Source: Anaerolineales bacterium
Lineage (GTDB): Bacteria > Chloroflexota > Anaerolineae > Anaerolineales > Villigracilaceae
Length of the DNA stretch: 44,235 nt
NCBI GenBank assembly: GCA_014860805.1
Contig: JACZJB010000249.1
Span: forward strand, 1 to 44,235
Reading direction: 5' to 3'
Shown: positions 25,577 to 33,780 of the stretch, one piece after another
Numbering within the stretch: position 1 is the stretch's first letter
How the letters are laid out: the number at the start of each line of letters is the position of its first letter
Notes under the pieces: generated by a model
What the model saw: only the letters and a program-made list of their open reading frames with translations
Database searches by the model: none
Told to the model about the DNA's origin: nothing
Position numbers and translations under genes: made by a program

Positions 25577-26260
25577 TCAGACCTTTAGACGATAGCCGAC
25601 GCCTGGCTCAGTGTGAATATAAGTTGGTCGGGATGGGTCAGGCTCGATCTTACCCCGCAAATTGCTGATATTCACCCGCAAAATATGCATGTCATCATAG
25701 CCATCGCCCCATACCTGTCGAAGCAATTGATGATGGGTAATGACCTTCCCCGCATGAGTCACCAGAACTTTGAGCAGGTCATATTCGGTGGGTGTGAGTT
25801 GAATTTCTTTATCCTCAACCTTGACCAGGCGGCGGGAAAAATCCACAGTCAAGCCGCTGGATTGAAAAACAGGCTCATTCGCAACTGACAGTTGTTTGCG
25901 CAACGCGACTCGCATGCGCGCCAATAATTCCCCTGTCCCGAACGGCTTCGTGAGGTAATCATCCGCGCCAACATCGAGCGCGGCAATCTTATCCTGCTCG
26001 GCTTCGCGGACAGAGAGAATAATGATGGGCGTCTGACTCCACTCCCGTAGGCGGCGGGTGACTTCGATGCCATCGATGTCAGGCAATCCTAAATCCAGGA
26101 TGATGATATCTGGGCGGTGACTGAGAACGGCTTGAAGCGCTTCCTCCCCCGAAGCGGATTCATAGACCGCGAATCCCTGCGCGCCCAAGGCGGCCCGCAG
26201 ATATCGCCGAATGGGGGCTTCGTCATCCACTACCAAAACACGCTGATTTGGTGCTGTCAT
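25577..26260 (-). CDS. kdpE: KdpE response regulator
   Basis: A 227-residue OmpR/PhoB-type regulator. Receiver domain with VDDE near the N terminus, phospho-acceptor Asp56 (IIILDLGLPD), Ser/Thr switch (IILSVR) and Lys (YLTKPF); then the winged-helix domain ending in YIHTEPGVGYRLKV. In the known Kdp system it activates kdpFABC under potassium limitation. The start overlaps the kdpD stop by four bases (ATGA). It is the last gene of the operon. Confidence 0.95.
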   Translation of the reverse strand: MTAPNQRVLVVDDEAPIRRYLRAALGAQGFAVYESASGEEALQAVLSHRPDIIILDLGLPDIDGIEVTRRLREWSQTPIIILSVREAEQDKIAALDVGADDYLTKPFGTGELLARMRVALRKQLSVANEPVFQSSGLTVDFSRRLVKVEDKEIQLTPTEYDLLKVLVTHAGKVITHHQLLRQVWGDGYDDMHILRVNISNLRGKIEPDPSRPTYIHTEPGVGYRLKV

Positions 26261-28914
26261 TTGTCCAATGGTAATTCAACTTCAAGGATCGTACCGCCGC
26301 CTTCGCGGTTCAATGCGCGGATTTGCCCACCATGAGCTTCTACAATTCCCTTGCTAATCGAGAGTCCCAGACCCGTGCCGCTGACACTTTCCGGGCGTTG
26401 GACTCGGTAGAATTTGTCAAAGACGCGGGAAAGGTCTTCGAAGGGAATCCCAGCTCCACGGTCCGCAATTTGGAGGCGGGCTTTTGAATCAACCAACGAA
26501 GCGGCGACTTCGATCAACGAATCCTCTGGCGAATACTTGATGGCGTTCTCCAGTAAATTGACAATCACCTGTGCCATGAGCGTGAAATCCATTGAAATCA
26601 GCGGGAAGTTTGCGGGCACATTTACTTTGATTTGATGATGCTCGGCGCGTTTGCCGAGTTGCTCGAGGGCTGTGCCGATCAGATCCTGCACGTCACCAGG
26701 CTCGCGGTGGAGTTTGATCGCACCGCTTTCGATGCGTGTCATGTTCAATAAATTTCCGACGAGACGGTTGAGCCGCTCCGCTTCGCCGCGCGCGTTTTCG
26801 ATGAGCGCGTTGCGGGCGGGTTCATCCATTTTATGATTCTCATCGAGCGCAGAAAGCGCGCCCGTGATGGCGACCAGCGGCGTGCGAAGATCATGCGAGA
26901 TGGAATTGAGCAAGGCGTTCTGCAATTTTTCGGCGGATTGCAACAACACCATCTGTCGGTTCTGTTCTTCGAGCAATGCGCGTTCGATGGCTTGCGCTCC
27001 TTGATTTGCAAATGACTCCATCAGGCGGCGTTGGGCGGACGTGAGGTCAGTGTTGGCGGTGTTCGGCTTGCCAACGCCAAGCACGCCCATTACGCCTTTC
27101 GATGTTTTCAGTGGAAGGTAACGCAACTGCGCGGCGGGCAATGTGTTGGTGTGCCGACCCGCAGGTTCAGCGTGACGATAAACCCAATCGGCAACCGCCA
27201 TCTCTTCGTCGTTCAATTTCAAATTATCACTGATGGCATACGCGACCATTCGATTTTCTTCGGGCAGCAACACCGCAATGGTGCGGCTGAACGTTTGCTC
27301 CAAGTGTTTTTTGAAGACATGCAAAATGGATTCGAGATTCGCCGACGACGCCAGGTCGCGGCTGAGGTCGTACAACTCCGCCGTCTCCGCCTCACGCTGA
27401 CGCGCCGCCTCTGCCTGTTCGCTCGCCCGAGCCGTCAACTGGCTGATGACCATGCCCACCAAAAACAAGGCGACGAACACAATGATGTATTGCGTATCTG
27501 AAACCGCGAAGGTGTAATACGGCGTGACAAAGAGGAAATCGAACACCAACACGCCCGCCAATGATGCAAGGATGGCGGGACCGCGCCCGAGGTAAATGGC
27601 AGAGACCACTACGGTCAGCAGATAAAGCATGACGAGATTGGTCTGCTCGATTCGCCCGCCGATGAAAAAACCCGTCACGGTGGCAAGCGCGACCAAAAAC
27701 AAACTTAATACATAGCGATAAATGGGGCTATGCAGTTTGAGCGGGTTTTCTTCCGCGGGGAAGGAAGGTTTATCTGAACTGGTAACGACATAAACATCGA
27801 TGTCACCGCTTTTGTGAATCAACATATCCACCAGCGAGCCGCGCAACAATTCCTGCCAACGTGGGCGCAGCGGCTTGCCTGTCACAATTTTGGTGATGTT
27901 GTTCTTGTGGGCAAACTCGATGATGGTTTGTGTCACCGCGTCCATCGAACTGCCCGCAGAAAGGATGTACGAACGCGCGCCCAAATCTTCCGCCAGTTGC
28001 AGAATGCCCGCCACGCGGTCACGCTTCTCTGACGACATCGAAGCAAACTGCGGCGTTTCCACATACAGCGCGATCCATTCGGCGTTAAGTTCATCTGCCA
28101 ATCGCCGTGTGGTGCGGACAAGCCTTTCGCTCAACGGGCTGGGACTGATGCAAACCAACAGCCGCTCGCCCGCCGCCCAAATCCCTTGAATGGCGCGGGT
28201 CTGCATGTATGCCCGCATCTGGTCGTCCACACGCTCGGCTGCGCGCCGCAGGGACATCTCTCGTAAGGCAGTCAGATTCCCCTTGCGGAAAAATTTTTGA
28301 ATCGCCCGCGCCGCCTGATCGGGGACATATACCTTCCCCTCCTGCAAACGCACGAGCAATTCATCGGGCGGAAGGTCGATCACTTCGATCTCCGCGGCTT
28401 CGTCTATCACGCGGTCGGGAATCGTCTCACGGACGATCACGCCCGTCACCTGCGCCACAATGTCGTTCAAACTTTCAAGGTGTTGGATGTTGAGCGTGGT
28501 GTACACGTCAATGCCCGCCGACAAAATCTCCTGCACATCCTGATAGCGTTTCGGGTGACGCGAGCCAGGCGCGTTGGTGTGCGCGAACTCATCCACTAAA
28601 ACCAGTTGCGGCTTGCGCTGGATGACACCATCCACATCGAGTTCGGTCAGCGTGACATTGTGATATTCCACCTGCTTGCGCGGCAGAATTTCCAACCCTT
28701 CCACCAGTTCTTCCGTCTCAGCGCGTTTGTGCGTTTCGATATAGCCAACCACCACATCCACACCCTGAGCCTTGCGTTGATGCGCGGCTTCAAGCATGGC
28801 ATAGGTTTTGCCCACGCCCGCCACGTAGCCGAGGAAAATTTTCAACCGCCCGCGTTTGTTTTCTTCGGATTGGATATTTTTCAACAATTCATCAGGGTCG
28901 GGACGATGTTCCAT
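26257..28914 (-). CDS. kdpD: KdpD osmosensitive potassium channel histidine kinase
   Basis: An 885-residue sensor kinase of full KdpD length. The N-terminal KdpD domain has Walker A GYVAGVGKTYAM and the conserved VDEFAHTNAPGSRHPKRYQD; a USP-like domain follows (about 230-370), then four close membrane helices (DUF4118, about 400-500), a GAF domain, and the HisKA/HATPase core with NSISHDLRTPLVAITG (His674), NLLENAIKYSP and GTGLGLSI. It senses low K+ and turgor or ionic change and phosphorylates KdpE. I use the ATG at 28914, six bases after the kdpC stop; a TTG directly before it is the alternative. Confidence 0.96.
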   Translation of the reverse strand: MEHRPDPDELLKNIQSEENKRGRLKIFLGYVAGVGKTYAMLEAAHQRKAQGVDVVVGYIETHKRAETEELVEGLEILPRKQVEYHNVTLTELDVDGVIQRKPQLVLVDEFAHTNAPGSRHPKRYQDVQEILSAGIDVYTTLNIQHLESLNDIVAQVTGVIVRETIPDRVIDEAAEIEVIDLPPDELLVRLQEGKVYVPDQAARAIQKFFRKGNLTALREMSLRRAAERVDDQMRAYMQTRAIQGIWAAGERLLVCISPSPLSERLVRTTRRLADELNAEWIALYVETPQFASMSSEKRDRVAGILQLAEDLGARSYILSAGSSMDAVTQTIIEFAHKNNITKIVTGKPLRPRWQELLRGSLVDMLIHKSGDIDVYVVTSSDKPSFPAEENPLKLHSPIYRYVLSLFLVALATVTGFFIGGRIEQTNLVMLYLLTVVVSAIYLGRGPAILASLAGVLVFDFLFVTPYYTFAVSDTQYIIVFVALFLVGMVISQLTARASEQAEAARQREAETAELYDLSRDLASSANLESILHVFKKHLEQTFSRTIAVLLPEENRMVAYAISDNLKLNDEEMAVADWVYRHAEPAGRHTNTLPAAQLRYLPLKTSKGVMGVLGVGKPNTANTDLTSAQRRLMESFANQGAQAIERALLEEQNRQMVLLQSAEKLQNALLNSISHDLRTPLVAITGALSALDENHKMDEPARNALIENARGEAERLNRLVGNLLNMTRIESGAIKLHREPGDVQDLIGTALEQLGKRAEHHQIKVNVPANFPLISMDFTLMAQVIVNLLENAIKYSPEDSLIEVAASLVDSKARLQIADRGAGIPFEDLSRVFDKFYRVQRPESVSGTGLGLSISKGIVEAHGGQIRALNREGGGTILEVELPLDK

Positions 28915-28919
28915 CAAAT

Positions 28920-29483
28920 TTATTGTATCCCATCAAGCGCGAGATTCAACAACAGGACATTGACTCGCGGCTCGCCAAAGATTCCGAATTGACGTCCCTC
29001 CGTATGTTGCTCCACCAATGATGTGACTTCCGCCTCACCCCACCCGCGGGCTGTTGCCACACGCCGAACCTGATACAACGCTGACGCCATGCTGATGTGT
29101 GGGTCGAGTCCGCTTGCAGAGGCGGTGACCAGGTCCACGGGAATCGGAAGCGTATTGTCAGGGTCAGCGGCATGGAGCGTGTCCATGCGCGCTTGCACAA
29201 CTTCTTTGAGAGACGGATTCATCGGTCCGTAGTTGGAACCAGACGAAGCGGCAGCGTTGTACCCAGCTGCAGAGGGACGTCCCCAGAAATATTTCGGGTC
29301 ATCGAACTGCTGACCGATAAGTTCTGAGCCGTAGGCTTTGCCGTCAATGACGATGAGACTGCCATTTGCCTGATGCGGGAAAAGGATTTGGGCGAGTCCC
29401 GTCACGGTGAGGGGATAGATCACGCCCGTAATAACAGTAAGCAATGCCAGCAACGTGATGGCTGGGCGAAGTTGTGATTTCAT
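28920..29483 (-). CDS. kdpC: KdpC, potassium-transporting ATPase C chain
   Basis: A 187-residue subunit with one N-terminal membrane helix (about 8-31, [20 protein letters not shown]) and a large extracytoplasmic domain. [26 protein letters not shown] and [14 protein letters not shown] are KdpC signature segments. It assembles with KdpA and KdpB and is thought to raise K+ or ATP affinity. The ATG at 29483 overlaps the stop of a newly noticed small gene (ATGA); an open frame continues to 29669 but the extension is not KdpC-like. Confidence 0.95.
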
Positions 29484-29653
29484 GACGAGAAGACTCCAGA
29501 AGTGATGAGCAATGTCCATGCAATAGCGGCGATGAACACCCACGGACGCATAGGAACGGGAACGTGTAAGGTATTCGGTGCAACACTGGCAGTGACGAGT
29601 GCTGCTGTAGAAATTATGCCAGCGACTTTTGAAAGAGAGAGTTTTGTTTTCAT
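29480..29653 (-). CDS. Small membrane protein between kdpB and kdpC (57 aa), unrecognised
   Basis: An open frame of 57 codons starting with ATG at 29653, with GGAG six bases upstream, and ending in a TGA that overlaps the kdpC ATG by four bases. The product has a basic N terminus (MKTKLSLSK), a first hydrophobic stretch (about 9-24), a short Pro-rich turn (HVPVPMRP) and a second membrane helix ([18 protein letters not shown]). The ribosome site and tight coupling argue that it is translated. I do not know a Kdp subunit at this position in the model systems; KdpF is a different, shorter protein located upstream of kdpA. A role in assembling or tuning the pump is inference. Confidence 0.72.
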
Positions 29654-29668
29654 TTTTTACTCCATTCA

Positions 29669-29714
29669 TGTCATTGCGAGGAGCGCTCTTGCTCTTTGCG
29701 ACGAAGCAATGACA
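29669..29714. repeat. Palindromic repeat between kdpB and the 57-aa gene
   Basis: TGTCATTGC (29669-29677) and GCAATGACA (29706-29714) are perfect arms around an internal GAGGAGCG...CGACGAA segment. This type of TCATTGCGAGG...GAAGCAAT palindrome is a widespread intergenic repeat in bacterial genomes. It abuts the kdpB stop and may act as an mRNA processing or stabilising hairpin. Confidence 0.75.
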
Positions 29715-31790
29715 TCAAACTAAATGCAACGCCACCAACAACATATCAATGACCTTGATACCAATAAAAGGCACAAGCAAACCGCCGAGACCGTAAATGA
29801 GTAAGTTGTCGCGTAAGAGTTGTGCCGCTCCAACGGCACGATACGGCACACCGCGCAAGGCAAGCGGAATCAACGCGATGATGATGAGCGCGTTGAAAAT
29901 CACTGCAGACATGATGGCGCTTTCAGGCGTGGCAAGATGCATGATGTTGAGCGCGTTCAATTGCGGATACGTGCTGGCAAAGGCAGCAGGGATGATGGCA
30001 AAATACTTGCTGACATCATTGGCAAGGCTGAACGTAGTCAATGCGCCGCGAGTCATCAGCAGTTGTTTACCGATTTCCACGATCTCGATTAATTTCGTGG
30101 GATTGCTGTCCAAGTCCACCATGTTGGCGGCTTCGCGGGCTGGTTGCGTGCCTGTGTTCATCGCCACAGCAACGTCGGCTTGAGCAAGGGCAGGCGCGTC
30201 GTTCGTCCCGTCACCTGTCATCGCAACCAGTCGTCCGCCCGTTTGATATTCACGGATGAGTTTGAGTTTGGCTTCGGGCGTGGCTTGCGCGAGAAAATCA
30301 TCCACGCCTGCTTCGGCGGCGATGGCGGCAGCTGTCAGCGGATTGTCGCCTGTGATCATCACGGTCTTGATGCCCATCTTACGCAGCTGCGCGAAGCGTT
30401 CCTTCATGCCACCTTTGACGATGTCTTTCAAATGTATGACTCCCAGCGCTTTGTTGTCGCGAGTCACAACTAGCGGCGTGCCGCCTGCTCGGGCAATGGA
30501 ATCAACTGTCGGCTTGAGGTCTGAGGCGACGCCGTTTCCATTCGATTGAATCAATCCCATCATCGTGTCAGGCGCTCCCTTGCGGATTTGAGTCCCGTTG
30601 AAGTTCACGCCGCTCATGCGCGTTTGCGCGGTGAACGGGATGAAGTGCATGCCGTCCACGGTGTGACCACGCAGACCGAATTTTTCTTTGGCAAGCACCA
30701 CAATGGAACGACCTTCGGGAGTCTCATCGGCAAGGGATGCGAGTTGCGCGGCTTCGGCAAGTTCGTTGGCATTCGCGCCGTTGACGGGGATGAACTCGAC
30801 GGCCTGACGATTGCCGAGCGTGATGGTTCCTGTTTTGTCGAGCAACAGCACATCCACATCACCTGCCGCTTCGACGGCGCGACCCGACATGGCGATGACG
30901 TTGCGCTGAATCATTCTGTCCATGCCTGCGATGCCGATGGCAGAAAGCAAGCCGCCGATGGTGGTGGGGATGAGACAGACGAGCAGCGCGATGAGCACGG
31001 TGATGGTGATGGGCGTGCCGCTGCCGCTGGCTTCGACGCTGTAAATCGAATACGGCAGCAGCGTGGCGCAGACGATGAGAAAGATGATGGTAAAGCCCGC
31101 CAGCAAAATGTTGAGAGCAATTTCATTCGGCGTCTTCTGACGCTTCGCGCCTTCGACCATGCTGATCATTCGATCGAGAAATCCCTGCCCAGGGTCGGCG
31201 CTGACGCGGATGATGAGCCAGTCGGACAGAAGCCGTGTGCCGCCCGTGACAGCGGAACGGTCACCGCCCGCCTCACGCACAACTGGGGCTGATTCGCCCG
31301 TGACGGCGGATTCATCCACCGAAGCGATTCCAACGACAATCTCGCCATCGGCAGGGAGAATGTCGCCTGCTTCAACGAGATACAAGTCATCTTTGCGCAA
31401 AGAGGTTGACGAAACGATTTCCACTTTCGTGAGCGCGGTTTGGACATCATGCGCTTCACCGTGAACTTTCTTCGCGGGCGTATCCTGTCGCGCTTTTCGC
31501 AAGGACTCGGCTTGCGCCTTACCTCGTCCTTCAGCAACGGCTTCGGAGAAGTTGGCGAATAACACGGTGAACCACAGCCAGAGCGCGATCCCGCCAATGA
31601 AACCCGCGGGCGCTTCGCCTTGCCCGATGAGGGATTGAATCCACAGGATGGTTGTTAGGACACTGCCCACTTCCACCACGAACATGACAGGGTTGCGCAC
31701 CATCCAGCGCGGGTTGAGTTTGATAAAGGAATCGAGCACAGCGCGTTGATACATTTCGCGGCGGGCTTGGGTTTTGTTTTTGGTTGTCAT
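29715..31790 (-). CDS. kdpB: KdpB, P-type ATPase subunit of the potassium pump
   Basis: A 691-residue P-type ATPase. The phosphorylation motif [16 protein letters not shown] (Asp318), the actuator loop [13 protein letters not shown], the nucleotide-domain KGAPD and the hinge [17 protein letters not shown] are complete. It hydrolyses ATP to drive K+ uptake through KdpA. All membrane segments expected for KdpB (about seven) are present and the length is normal. AGAGA lies before the ATG. It is separated from kdpA by 93 bases that hold an imperfect palindrome. Confidence 0.98.
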
Positions 31791-31883: not shown

Positions 31884-33596
31884 TTATCCGAAGATCATCA
31901 AGTGTTCCACGATCGGTCCGAGCGCCAGGGCGGGCAGGAAGCTCAATGCGCCCACGATAATGATGACGCCGATGACCCATACAATGAAAAGCGGAGTATG
32001 CGTGGGCAAGGTCCCTGCACTGGCTGGGACTTTCTTCTTATTCGCCAGTGAACCTGCAATTGCCAATACAGGAATAGCCAGCCAATAACGCGCAATGAAC
32101 ATGGCAATACCGAGAGCGATGTTATAGAAAGGCGTGTTCGCACCCAGCCCAGCAAATGCCGAACCGTTGTTATTCCCAGCAGATGAGAACGCATACAGCA
32201 CTTCACTAAGCCCATGCGCAGACGGGTTGTAGATCGTCGCCCTGCCTGCTTCGCTCATCAATGCAATCGCGGTTCCAGACAGCACGAGGAAAACAGGGAT
32301 CAGAATAATGATGGACGCCATCTTCATCTCATAAGCTTCGATCTTCTTGCCGAGGTACTCAGGTGTGCGTCCCACCATCAAACCAGAGACGAAGACTGCA
32401 ATGATGACGAACGCCAACATGCCATACAAGCCTGAGCCGACACCGCCATAAACAATTTCACCCAATTGCATCAGCCACATCGGGACGAGTCCGCCTAGCG
32501 GCATGTACGAGTCGTGCATCGAATTTACCGAGCCATTCGACGCGGCAGTTGTCGCCGTTGCCCACAGCGTGGAGTTCACGATCCCAAAGCGGACTTCCTT
32601 GCCTTCCATGTTCCCGCCTGGATTCGTCGCGGACTGGGTCTGGTCAACGCCAAGTTTTGCGAACATGGGGTTGCCACTTTGCTCTGACCAAACTGCCACG
32701 CCCAACAGCGCAACGATCACAATCGTCATCACCGCCAGCAGCGCCCAGCCCTGACGGGTATCTCCGACCATCCTGCCGTAGGTGTAACAAAGCGCGGCGG
32801 GAATGATGAGGATGGATAGCATCTCCAGAAAGTTCGAAAACGGGGTTGCGTTTTCCAGCGGGTGCGCCGAGTTGACGTTGAAGAATCCGCCGCCGTTGGT
32901 GCCGAGTTGTTTGATGGCGACCTGCGATGCAGCAGGTCCCACCGCGATGAGTTGCGTCTCGCCTGATTGAAGCGAAGTCGCAGTTTTGTATTCGCTAAAA
33001 GTCTGCACAACGCCTTGAGAAACCAAAGCCAATGCAAGAACCAGCGAAAGCGGAATCAGGATGTAGAGGACTGAGCGAGTCATGTCAACCCAGAAATTAC
33101 CAATCTCTTTAGTGGTATGGCGGACGATGCCGCGAATCAATGCCACCACCACCGCCATGCCCGTCGCGGCAGAGACAAAATTCTGCACCGTCATGCCGAG
33201 CATTTGGGTGAGGTAACTCATGGTCGTCTCGCCGCCGTAGCCCTGCCAGTTGGTGTTGCTGGCAAAACTCACCGCCGTATTCCATGCAGAGTCAGGCAAG
33301 ACCGCGCCAAGTCCCTGCGGGTTGAGGGGCAGAATCCCTTGCAGGCGTTGAAGCAGATAAACCACGATCAAGCCGAGGATGTTGAAAAGCAACATCGCAA
33401 TGGCATAGGTTTTCCATGTCATCTCGGAGCGCGGGTCAATGCCTGAGAGGCGATAAAGGAATCGTTCAACGGGACCCAGCACAGGGTCAAGAAAGAGGCG
33501 CTCTCCTTGATAGACTTTCGCCATGTACGCGCCAATGGGTTTCGTCAAGAGAAGCAAAGTTCCGAAGTAAAAAATCAATTGCAGCCAGGTGTTCAT
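31884..33596 (-). CDS. kdpA: KdpA, potassium channel-like subunit
   Basis: A 570-residue membrane protein with about ten helices, homologous to four fused K+-channel subunits. The selectivity-filter type segments are visible, e.g. LGTNGGGFFNVNSAHPLENA and the later SAGNNNGSAFAGLGANTPF. It binds and conducts K+ into the complex powered by KdpB. The ATG at 33596 overlaps the kdpF stop by four bases. An open frame extends to 33710, but that part covers kdpF in another frame. Confidence 0.97.
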   Translation of the reverse strand: MNTWLQLIFYFGTLLLLTKPIGAYMAKVYQGERLFLDPVLGPVERFLYRLSGIDPRSEMTWKTYAIAMLLFNILGLIVVYLLQRLQGILPLNPQGLGAVLPDSAWNTAVSFASNTNWQGYGGETTMSYLTQMLGMTVQNFVSAATGMAVVVALIRGIVRHTTKEIGNFWVDMTRSVLYILIPLSLVLALALVSQGVVQTFSEYKTATSLQSGETQLIAVGPAASQVAIKQLGTNGGGFFNVNSAHPLENATPFSNFLEMLSILIIPAALCYTYGRMVGDTRQGWALLAVMTIVIVALLGVAVWSEQSGNPMFAKLGVDQTQSATNPGGNMEGKEVRFGIVNSTLWATATTAASNGSVNSMHDSYMPLGGLVPMWLMQLGEIVYGGVGSGLYGMLAFVIIAVFVSGLMVGRTPEYLGKKIEAYEMKMASIIILIPVFLVLSGTAIALMSEAGRATIYNPSAHGLSEVLYAFSSAGNNNGSAFAGLGANTPFYNIALGIAMFIARYWLAIPVLAIAGSLANKKKVPASAGTLPTHTPLFIVWVIGVIIIVGALSFLPALALGPIVEHLMIFG

Positions 33597-33685
33597 CCGA
33601 ACCACTCCGGTTTGACAAGTGCCAATACAAGATAGGCTAACAATCCCAGGGCAATAACACCTGTGATGAGGTACAAAGGATTCAC
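33593..33685 (-). CDS. kdpF: KdpF, small lipid-like subunit of the Kdp pump
   Basis: A 30-codon gene with a GTG start at 33685. GGGAGG lies seven bases upstream. The product, a single helix with the pattern YLITGVIALGLLAYLVLALV then KPEWFG, matches the KdpF pattern (one helix ending in Lys/Asn-x-Glu-x-Phe). KdpF stabilises KdpABC. The GTG overlaps the TGA of the upstream 32-aa gene (GTGA) and the stop overlaps the kdpA start (ATGA). Confidence 0.88.
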   Translation of the reverse strand: MNPLYLITGVIALGLLAYLVLALVKPEWFG

Positions 33686-33780
33686 GATTTATCCTCCCGA
33701 AGCTCATCAAGAATATTGATTATCCCAAGGGAAAGCGCAAAGAATAGGATAGTGAGCCCTACAAATAAAATGTCATTCAT
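33682..33780 (-). CDS. Small single-helix membrane protein upstream of kdpF (32 aa), unrecognised
   Basis: A 32-codon gene with ATG at 33780 and a strong GGAGG five bases upstream. The product begins MNDILFVGLTILFFALSLGI, a single hydrophobic helix, and ends with a charged tail DELREDKS. The stop overlaps the kdpF GTG. I recall similar short ORFs ahead of kdpF in other bacteria but cannot name a family or show this here. It is the promoter-proximal gene of the operon, so strong translation is likely. A KdpF-like or regulatory role is inference. Confidence 0.68.
   Translation of the reverse strand: MNDILFVGLTILFFALSLGIINILDELREDKS

Follow-up and report, generated by a model that had tools for sequence, protein, structure and literature searches.

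The potassium pump KdpFABC is a much-studied P-type ATPase. In the Anaerolineales DNA analyzed here (a stretch of 44,235 nucleotides, hereafter the window), its operon contains an open reading frame of 57 residues between kdpB and kdpC, running on the minus strand from 29653 to 29480. Is this frame a protein gene, and does its product belong to the pump? An earlier note, made from the sequence, had suggested a membrane protein that might tune the pump or couple it to KdpD. We found a real, conserved and lineage-specific gene that has no name and most likely encodes an accessory Kdp subunit.

The kdp operon of the window

The minus-strand operon consists of a 32-residue ORF, kdpF, kdpA, kdpB, the 57-codon ORF, kdpC, kdpD and kdpE, in this order (Table 1). 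The ATG of kdpA at 33596 was inferred from the ORF, the profile scan having covered 31884-33593. The kdpF gene matched PF09604 with an E-value of 7.1e-6 (26.2 bits, cut-off 21.2) and TIGR02115 with 27.0 bits (cut-off 26.85). The 32-residue ORF had no hit at E <= 1 in Pfam or NCBIfam; at 11 loci, counting that of the window, a similar ORF of 29-32 residues stands before a KdpF-like frame. Between 28850 and 30000, a terminator search found none, and a promoter search found one promoter-like site near the kdpC end, with shuffled sequences giving as many.

Table 1. Features of the kdp operon, numbered along the window
Feature	Position	Strand	Basis
32-residue single-helix ORF overlapping the kdpF start	33682..33780	minus	ORF list, profile scans
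kdpF, distinct from the 57-residue gene	33593..33685	minus	PF09604, TIGR02115
kdpA	31884..33596	minus	PF03814, 6.6e-252
kdpB	29715..31790	minus	TIGR01497, 1060 bits
GGAG ribosome-binding site of the 57-residue gene	29660..29663	minus	sequence; six bases 5' of the ATG
Gene for the 57-residue two-helix membrane protein	29480..29653	minus	ORF translation, relatives, pN/pS, AlphaFold
GGAG within codons 53-54 of the 57-residue gene, probable kdpC ribosome site	29494..29497	minus	
ATGA overlap, TGA of the 57-residue gene with ATG of kdpC	29480..29483	minus	sequence
kdpC	28920..29483	minus	PF02669, 2.3e-79
kdpD	26257..28917	minus	PF02702, 3.1e-100
kdpE-type response regulator	25577..26260	minus	PF00072 and PF00486

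The 57-codon gene encodes a predicted membrane hairpin

The ribosome site, the two hydrophobic segments and the four-base overlap with kdpC described in the earlier note were all confirmed. The hydrophobic segments begin at residues 10 and 39, and the predicted structure is a hairpin with helices at residues 2-24 and 33-51 (mean pLDDT 81, pTM 0.54), a lysine-rich N-terminus and a short, proline-rich loop. Annotation by Pfam and NCBIfam would leave the gene unnamed, because the copy in the window matched no model of either library above cut-off. Solved structures searched by sequence gave a best E-value of 5, and a Foldseek search of the PDB gave a best E-value of 6.4. No second copy was found in the same genome, where the sole other match had an E-value of 0.58.

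The interval between kdpB and the 57-residue gene contains a palindrome (29669-29714). Its 14-base core occurs six times in the genome and never when read backwards, its RNA fold has a z-score of -1.4, and relatives have different palindromes or none at this place.

Purifying selection acts on the 57-residue frame

The ORF is a genuine protein-coding gene, and purifying selection acts on it. Over all pairs in an alignment of 13 copies, pN/pS was 0.43 in the 57-residue frame and 0.417 for its codons 1-48 alone, whereas the other two sense frames gave 0.96 and 1.37; these ratios are rough because silent sites are near saturation. Measured against the window copy, the ratio was 0.384, and none of 500 runs of a relocated-change null (mean 0.904, sd 0.061) came as low. 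One antisense frame had a pN/pS of 0.57, yet it contains stops in 4 of the 13 copies. Residues M1, L19, P26, P32, P37, W38, F40, W46, S52 and G53 are invariant in the alignment. We also tried and rejected an N-terminally extended KdpC, whose frame is open in the window up to an ATG at 29669, because this frame is the one with a pN/pS of 1.37 and has stops in 5 of the 13 copies.

The signals around the gene are similarly kept. All 13 copies have the ATGA overlap with kdpC, and 12 have GGAG 5' of the start (L008 has AAGAG). Codon 53, within the likely kdpC ribosome site, is GGA in every copy; the C-terminal end may therefore be under two constraints, and part of its conservation could serve the kdpC ribosome site. 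At L011 (= L022), L021, L027 and L048 the ORF begins about 8 bases past the kdpB stop and fills the entire 178-base gap.

The gene is confined to kdp operons of one lineage

Matches to the 57-residue gene with E <= 4e-11 were found in 12 of 101 genomes, its own included, and the next best match had an E-value of 0.014. These 12 carriers belong to one genus, with identities of 43-100%, and all have kdp genes or remnants: ten have a full-length KdpC match, G007 has kdpA, together with kdpB as far as a contig end, and G050 has remnants. Within the genomes searched the gene is confined to kdp operons, with the exception of G050, in which only a kdpC stub adjoins it. A pattern-based search of 84,980 species, each represented by one genome, gave 138 pattern matches and ten confirmed loci, all in Anaerolineales MAGs and one of them (L048) outside the 12 carriers. 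All ten adjoin kdpB. Nine have kdpC on the other side, and the tenth, L047, is on a short contig that ends just past the 57-residue ORF. Eight of the ten have a separate kdpF before kdpA, L047 and L050 falling outside that check. The earlier note had named lack of conservation in close relatives as evidence against its proposal, and we found the reading frame between kdpB and kdpC to be conserved in them.

KdpC was present in 31 of 151 relatives. We sorted their kdpB-kdpC gaps by hand, using family labels of our own (A for the 57-residue family; B, C and D for other proteins). Ten gaps held A, ten held B (counting L039, which has a masked stretch and was assigned to B by HMM), three held C and five held no such gene, whereas G065, G010 and G050 were left unsorted; the G065 locus has a B-type frame by HMM (E 5e-11). 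A phylum-wide draw contained KdpC in 117 of 400 genomes, and 108 kdpC loci were examined, some genomes giving two, in a sample that leaves out partial or split matches and G258, G282, G372 and G465. The kdpB-kdpC gap was at most 100 bases in 75 loci and longer in 33. Among the longer gaps, 15 contained an ORF of at least 40 residues that has two or more hydrophobic segments (A 2, B 3, C 4, D 6), and the remaining 18 contained no such ORF. Most sampled Chloroflexota kdp operons thus have nothing in this slot, and several lineages have small membrane proteins there.

The protein is not KdpF, and its position has precedents

The earlier note had argued that the protein is not KdpF, and this stood. 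The profiles PF09604 and TIGR02115 did not match it at E <= 1, it has two predicted helices and is encoded after kdpB, and another gene fills the kdpF place in the operon. Both are very small membrane proteins encoded in kdp operons, but KdpF has one helix and about 30 residues and is encoded before kdpA, whereas the 57-residue protein is a predicted hairpin encoded after kdpB. The available text of one paper calls KdpF a 'lipid-like' stabilizer of KdpFABC (PMC9651954), and this role is the model for the one that we propose below.

The further claim, that no small subunit had been described at this position, has to be corrected. In cyanobacteria this position is taken by a KdpF-type subunit that has an extra helix, and the Synechocystis system is written KdpABGCD in the accessible part of a 2026 paper (PMC13099474). 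Judged from gene order, the cyanobacterial slot gene is probably the KdpG of this formula. A kdpG paper on Anabaena L-31 was reportedly published by Ballal and Apte in 2005. The slot gene of Picosynechococcus 7002 and Trichormus variabilis is annotated as subunit F, with an additional stretch at the N-terminal end. Scanned for KdpF, the Picosynechococcus protein hit PF09604 at residues 59-82 (7.4e-8); the slot of this species also houses a response regulator and a 47-residue protein. In the PLSDB tables, which are incomplete, no kdpF is annotated before kdpA in the stretches from these two species.

The cyanobacterial subunit shares with the 57-residue protein its place between kdpB and kdpC and has a hydrophobic N-terminal stretch before its KdpF-type helix; in Trichormus variabilis its gene also has the stop-start overlap with kdpC. 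However, its C-terminal helix is a true KdpF, ending in PEKF, and the 57-residue protein has no such helix. Comparison of family A with the cyanobacterial protein by hhalign gave probabilities of 0.3% and 0.1%, a weak test with only one and two cyanobacterial sequences. The proposal of an additional subunit encoded at this place has its precedent in cyanobacteria.

Nor is the slot otherwise empty in Chloroflexota, where two-helix or DUF4118 proteins are also encoded between kdpB and kdpC. Families B (105-133 residues) and D (87-88 residues) resemble the 57-residue protein in their slot and their two hydrophobic segments, but have C-terminal tails that it lacks. No relation was found by hhalign between A and D, between B and D, or between B and the cyanobacterial protein. 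A start-anchored register of A and D gave p 0.33, and in an offset scan of B and D one register stood out, at offset -2. We found no account of family A, or of any small kdpB-kdpC protein in Chloroflexota, in the literature within reach, which largely excluded subscription papers.

The product is probably an accessory subunit of the pump

We propose, with a probability of roughly 0.55, that the product is a small accessory subunit of the Kdp potassium pump and that its gene arose in one Anaerolineales clade. This reading is supported by the kdp genes or remnants in all 12 carriers, the invariable ATGA overlap and purifying selection; by the ten scan loci that adjoin kdpB, the single genomic copy and the separate kdpF; and by the slot precedents, namely the cyanobacterial subunit F with its extra helix and families B and D.

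The ATGA overlap makes coupled translation of the 57-residue protein and kdpC likely. According to the positive-inside rule, a lysine-rich end lies on the cytoplasmic side. With its lysine-rich start, the hairpin is therefore predicted to have both ends in the cytoplasm and the proline-rich loop, with the invariant P26, P32, P37 and W38, in the periplasm, where the bulk of KdpC lies. Synthesized immediately ahead of KdpC, probably by coupled ribosomes, the protein might insert in the membrane alongside newly made KdpC and pack beside KdpC and the membrane part of KdpA and KdpB. The complex might thereby be stabilized or tuned, much as by KdpF elsewhere in the complex; such tuning is plausible. 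In the text available to us, KdpC is said to be periplasmically oriented, with a suggested role like that of Na,K-ATPase beta subunits (PMC6255902), and its function is described as still unknown (PMC9651954).

Several observations weaken the proposal of an accessory subunit. G012 and G048 lie inside the carrier clade and retain both kdpB and kdpC but lack the gene, which is hence dispensable. In addition, G050 keeps an open copy after losing the pump, which a pure subunit need not survive. In this genome the gene is followed by the ATGA and the kdpC stub, and some 235 bases further downstream comes a kdpE-type regulator, while kdpD and a kdpC tail lie on a separate contig. The assembly has no KdpA match, and a search with the KdpB of the window found only other P-type ATPases (25-38% identity), where G012 and G048 gave 88%. 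The pump of G050 is lost, judged from KdpA, KdpB and the kdpC stubs. The invariant residues of the 57-residue protein are kept, with Glu for the usual Gly at position 12. The copy would reflect either recent decay or a hint of an added job with KdpD/KdpE, and we give it little weight either way because the assembly is in about 370 contigs. Near this orphan gene, G050 also encodes a 602-residue membrane protein (L156, 2470-4278, minus strand) like a 606-residue one of G060. By eye the G050 protein is an APC-type transporter; neither of the two matched a Pfam family at 0.001.

We also looked for positions in the neighboring subunits that change with the gene, comparing 11 A with 9 B sequences and leaving out three more distant or masked B rows. 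None was found in the C-terminal part of KdpB, the part compared. The single position found in KdpC is shared by the two non-carriers of the clade and therefore tracks ancestry rather than the gene. This outcome, like the share that the kdpC ribosome site may have in the C-terminal conservation, counts against a subunit.

The gene may derive from a longer slot protein

A FastTree tree of 35 pairs of KdpB (partial) and KdpC placed 11 A carriers together with the non-carriers G012 and G048 in one clade within the B carriers (support 0.97, or 0.94 with KdpC alone; several inner nodes are weak). On this tree the simplest reading would be one gain that replaced B, followed by two losses. Such nesting would also be expected if the 57-residue gene were a shortened, fast-changed descendant of the B protein of about 130 residues that retained the hairpin only. 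This is a question of origin and compatible with any function. AlphaFold predicted helices at residues 10-28 and 33-57 of B, with a low-confidence tail, so that both families form predicted hairpins in the same slot, and Lys9-Trp10 is common to three A members and B. However, the hhalign profile comparison gave no match (P 0.057 over 11 columns), class-preserving shuffles did as well as the start-anchored register (p 0.39), and neither HMM picked up a gene of the other family at E <= 1. We consider descent from B less likely than not, albeit worth keeping in mind.

Other functions are less well supported

The 57-residue peptide could instead act on KdpD, as a small regulator in the membrane, either reporting assembly of the pump or damping signaling. 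The genes kdpD and kdpE come next on the same strand, G050 retains its open copy upstream of the kdpE-type regulator with kdpD surviving on another contig, and the accessible text of a paper on mycobacterial KdpF (PMC3618439) says that membrane peptides of bacteria can interact with sensor kinases. The slot and the ATGA overlap, however, link the gene to kdpC and not to kdpD. The G050 operon looks decaying and rearranged, so that survival of the gene, with its Glu at position 12, may be recent chance, and KdpD seems complete both in the gene-bearing window and in G060 with its different slot protein. A regulator of KdpD is thus improbable.

We rate slightly lower a role in cis. Through translational coupling the frame would then set both the ribosome supply and the stoichiometry of KdpC, and the peptide as such would matter little. 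Although the constant overlap and the constant GGA within a GGAG-like kdpC ribosome site fit such a role, constraint on the amino acids is clear far from the overlap (pN/pS 0.34 in codons 25-37 and 0.30 in codons 38-48), and coupling alone needs no invariant P26, P32, P37, W38 and W46. Moreover, the gaps of at most 100 bases in 75 of the 108 phylum loci are too short for such a gene. Equally doubtful is an independent small membrane protein hitch-hiking in the operon, such as a phage-derived holin, as the matches pointing to it are below threshold (Pfam 0.011, PHROG 0.017; Phage_holin_2_2 with 15.9 bits against a curated cut-off of 25.4), the PHROG holin match occurs in only 2 of 13 members, and every strong match to the gene lies beside kdp genes or remnants.

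The kdpB-kdpC slot in other lineages

The occupants of the slot in Chloroflexota comprise the hairpin families A, B and D, which have no detectable mutual relation, and a DUF4118 sensor-like protein; in cyanobacteria the occupant is a KdpF fused to an extra helix. It is conceivable, though we hold the idea tentatively, that additional two-helix subunits of the pump have entered the operon repeatedly at this slot, and all the occupants may pack against KdpC. If this is true, the pump, described with four subunits, possesses one or two further ones in several lineages of bacteria. A conserved small protein that is produced together with KdpC, in a lineage with KdpF as well, would offer a handle on two questions, the function of KdpC and the tuning of P-type pumps by small helices.

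Members of family B occur at L012, L014-L016, L020, L024, L030, L034, L038, L117 and L136, and have an N-terminal hairpin, a variable tail and invariant P7, W9, L29, H36, W54 and N58 (numbering of the first sequence). The two-helix proteins of group D occur in one other taxonomic family of Chloroflexota, at L059, L061, L063, L072, L080 and L089, and their tail is conserved (QY-RRDQQA--YRWI). Two B and two D members scanned with Pfam matched no family above cut-off. The C proteins (249-251 residues; L023, L026, L032, L053 and L119) all matched DUF4118 (5 of 5), a domain also found in KdpD. By eye, G060 has a full-length KdpD ORF besides its slot protein; its kdpC and kdpD are separated by the 606-residue membrane protein and another response regulator, the second one. 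Several large Chloroflexota genomes (for example G411, G469, G475, G487 and G493) have extra KdpC matches, which consist of two pieces in one open frame of about 240-300 residues, as if a KdpC variant had an insertion.
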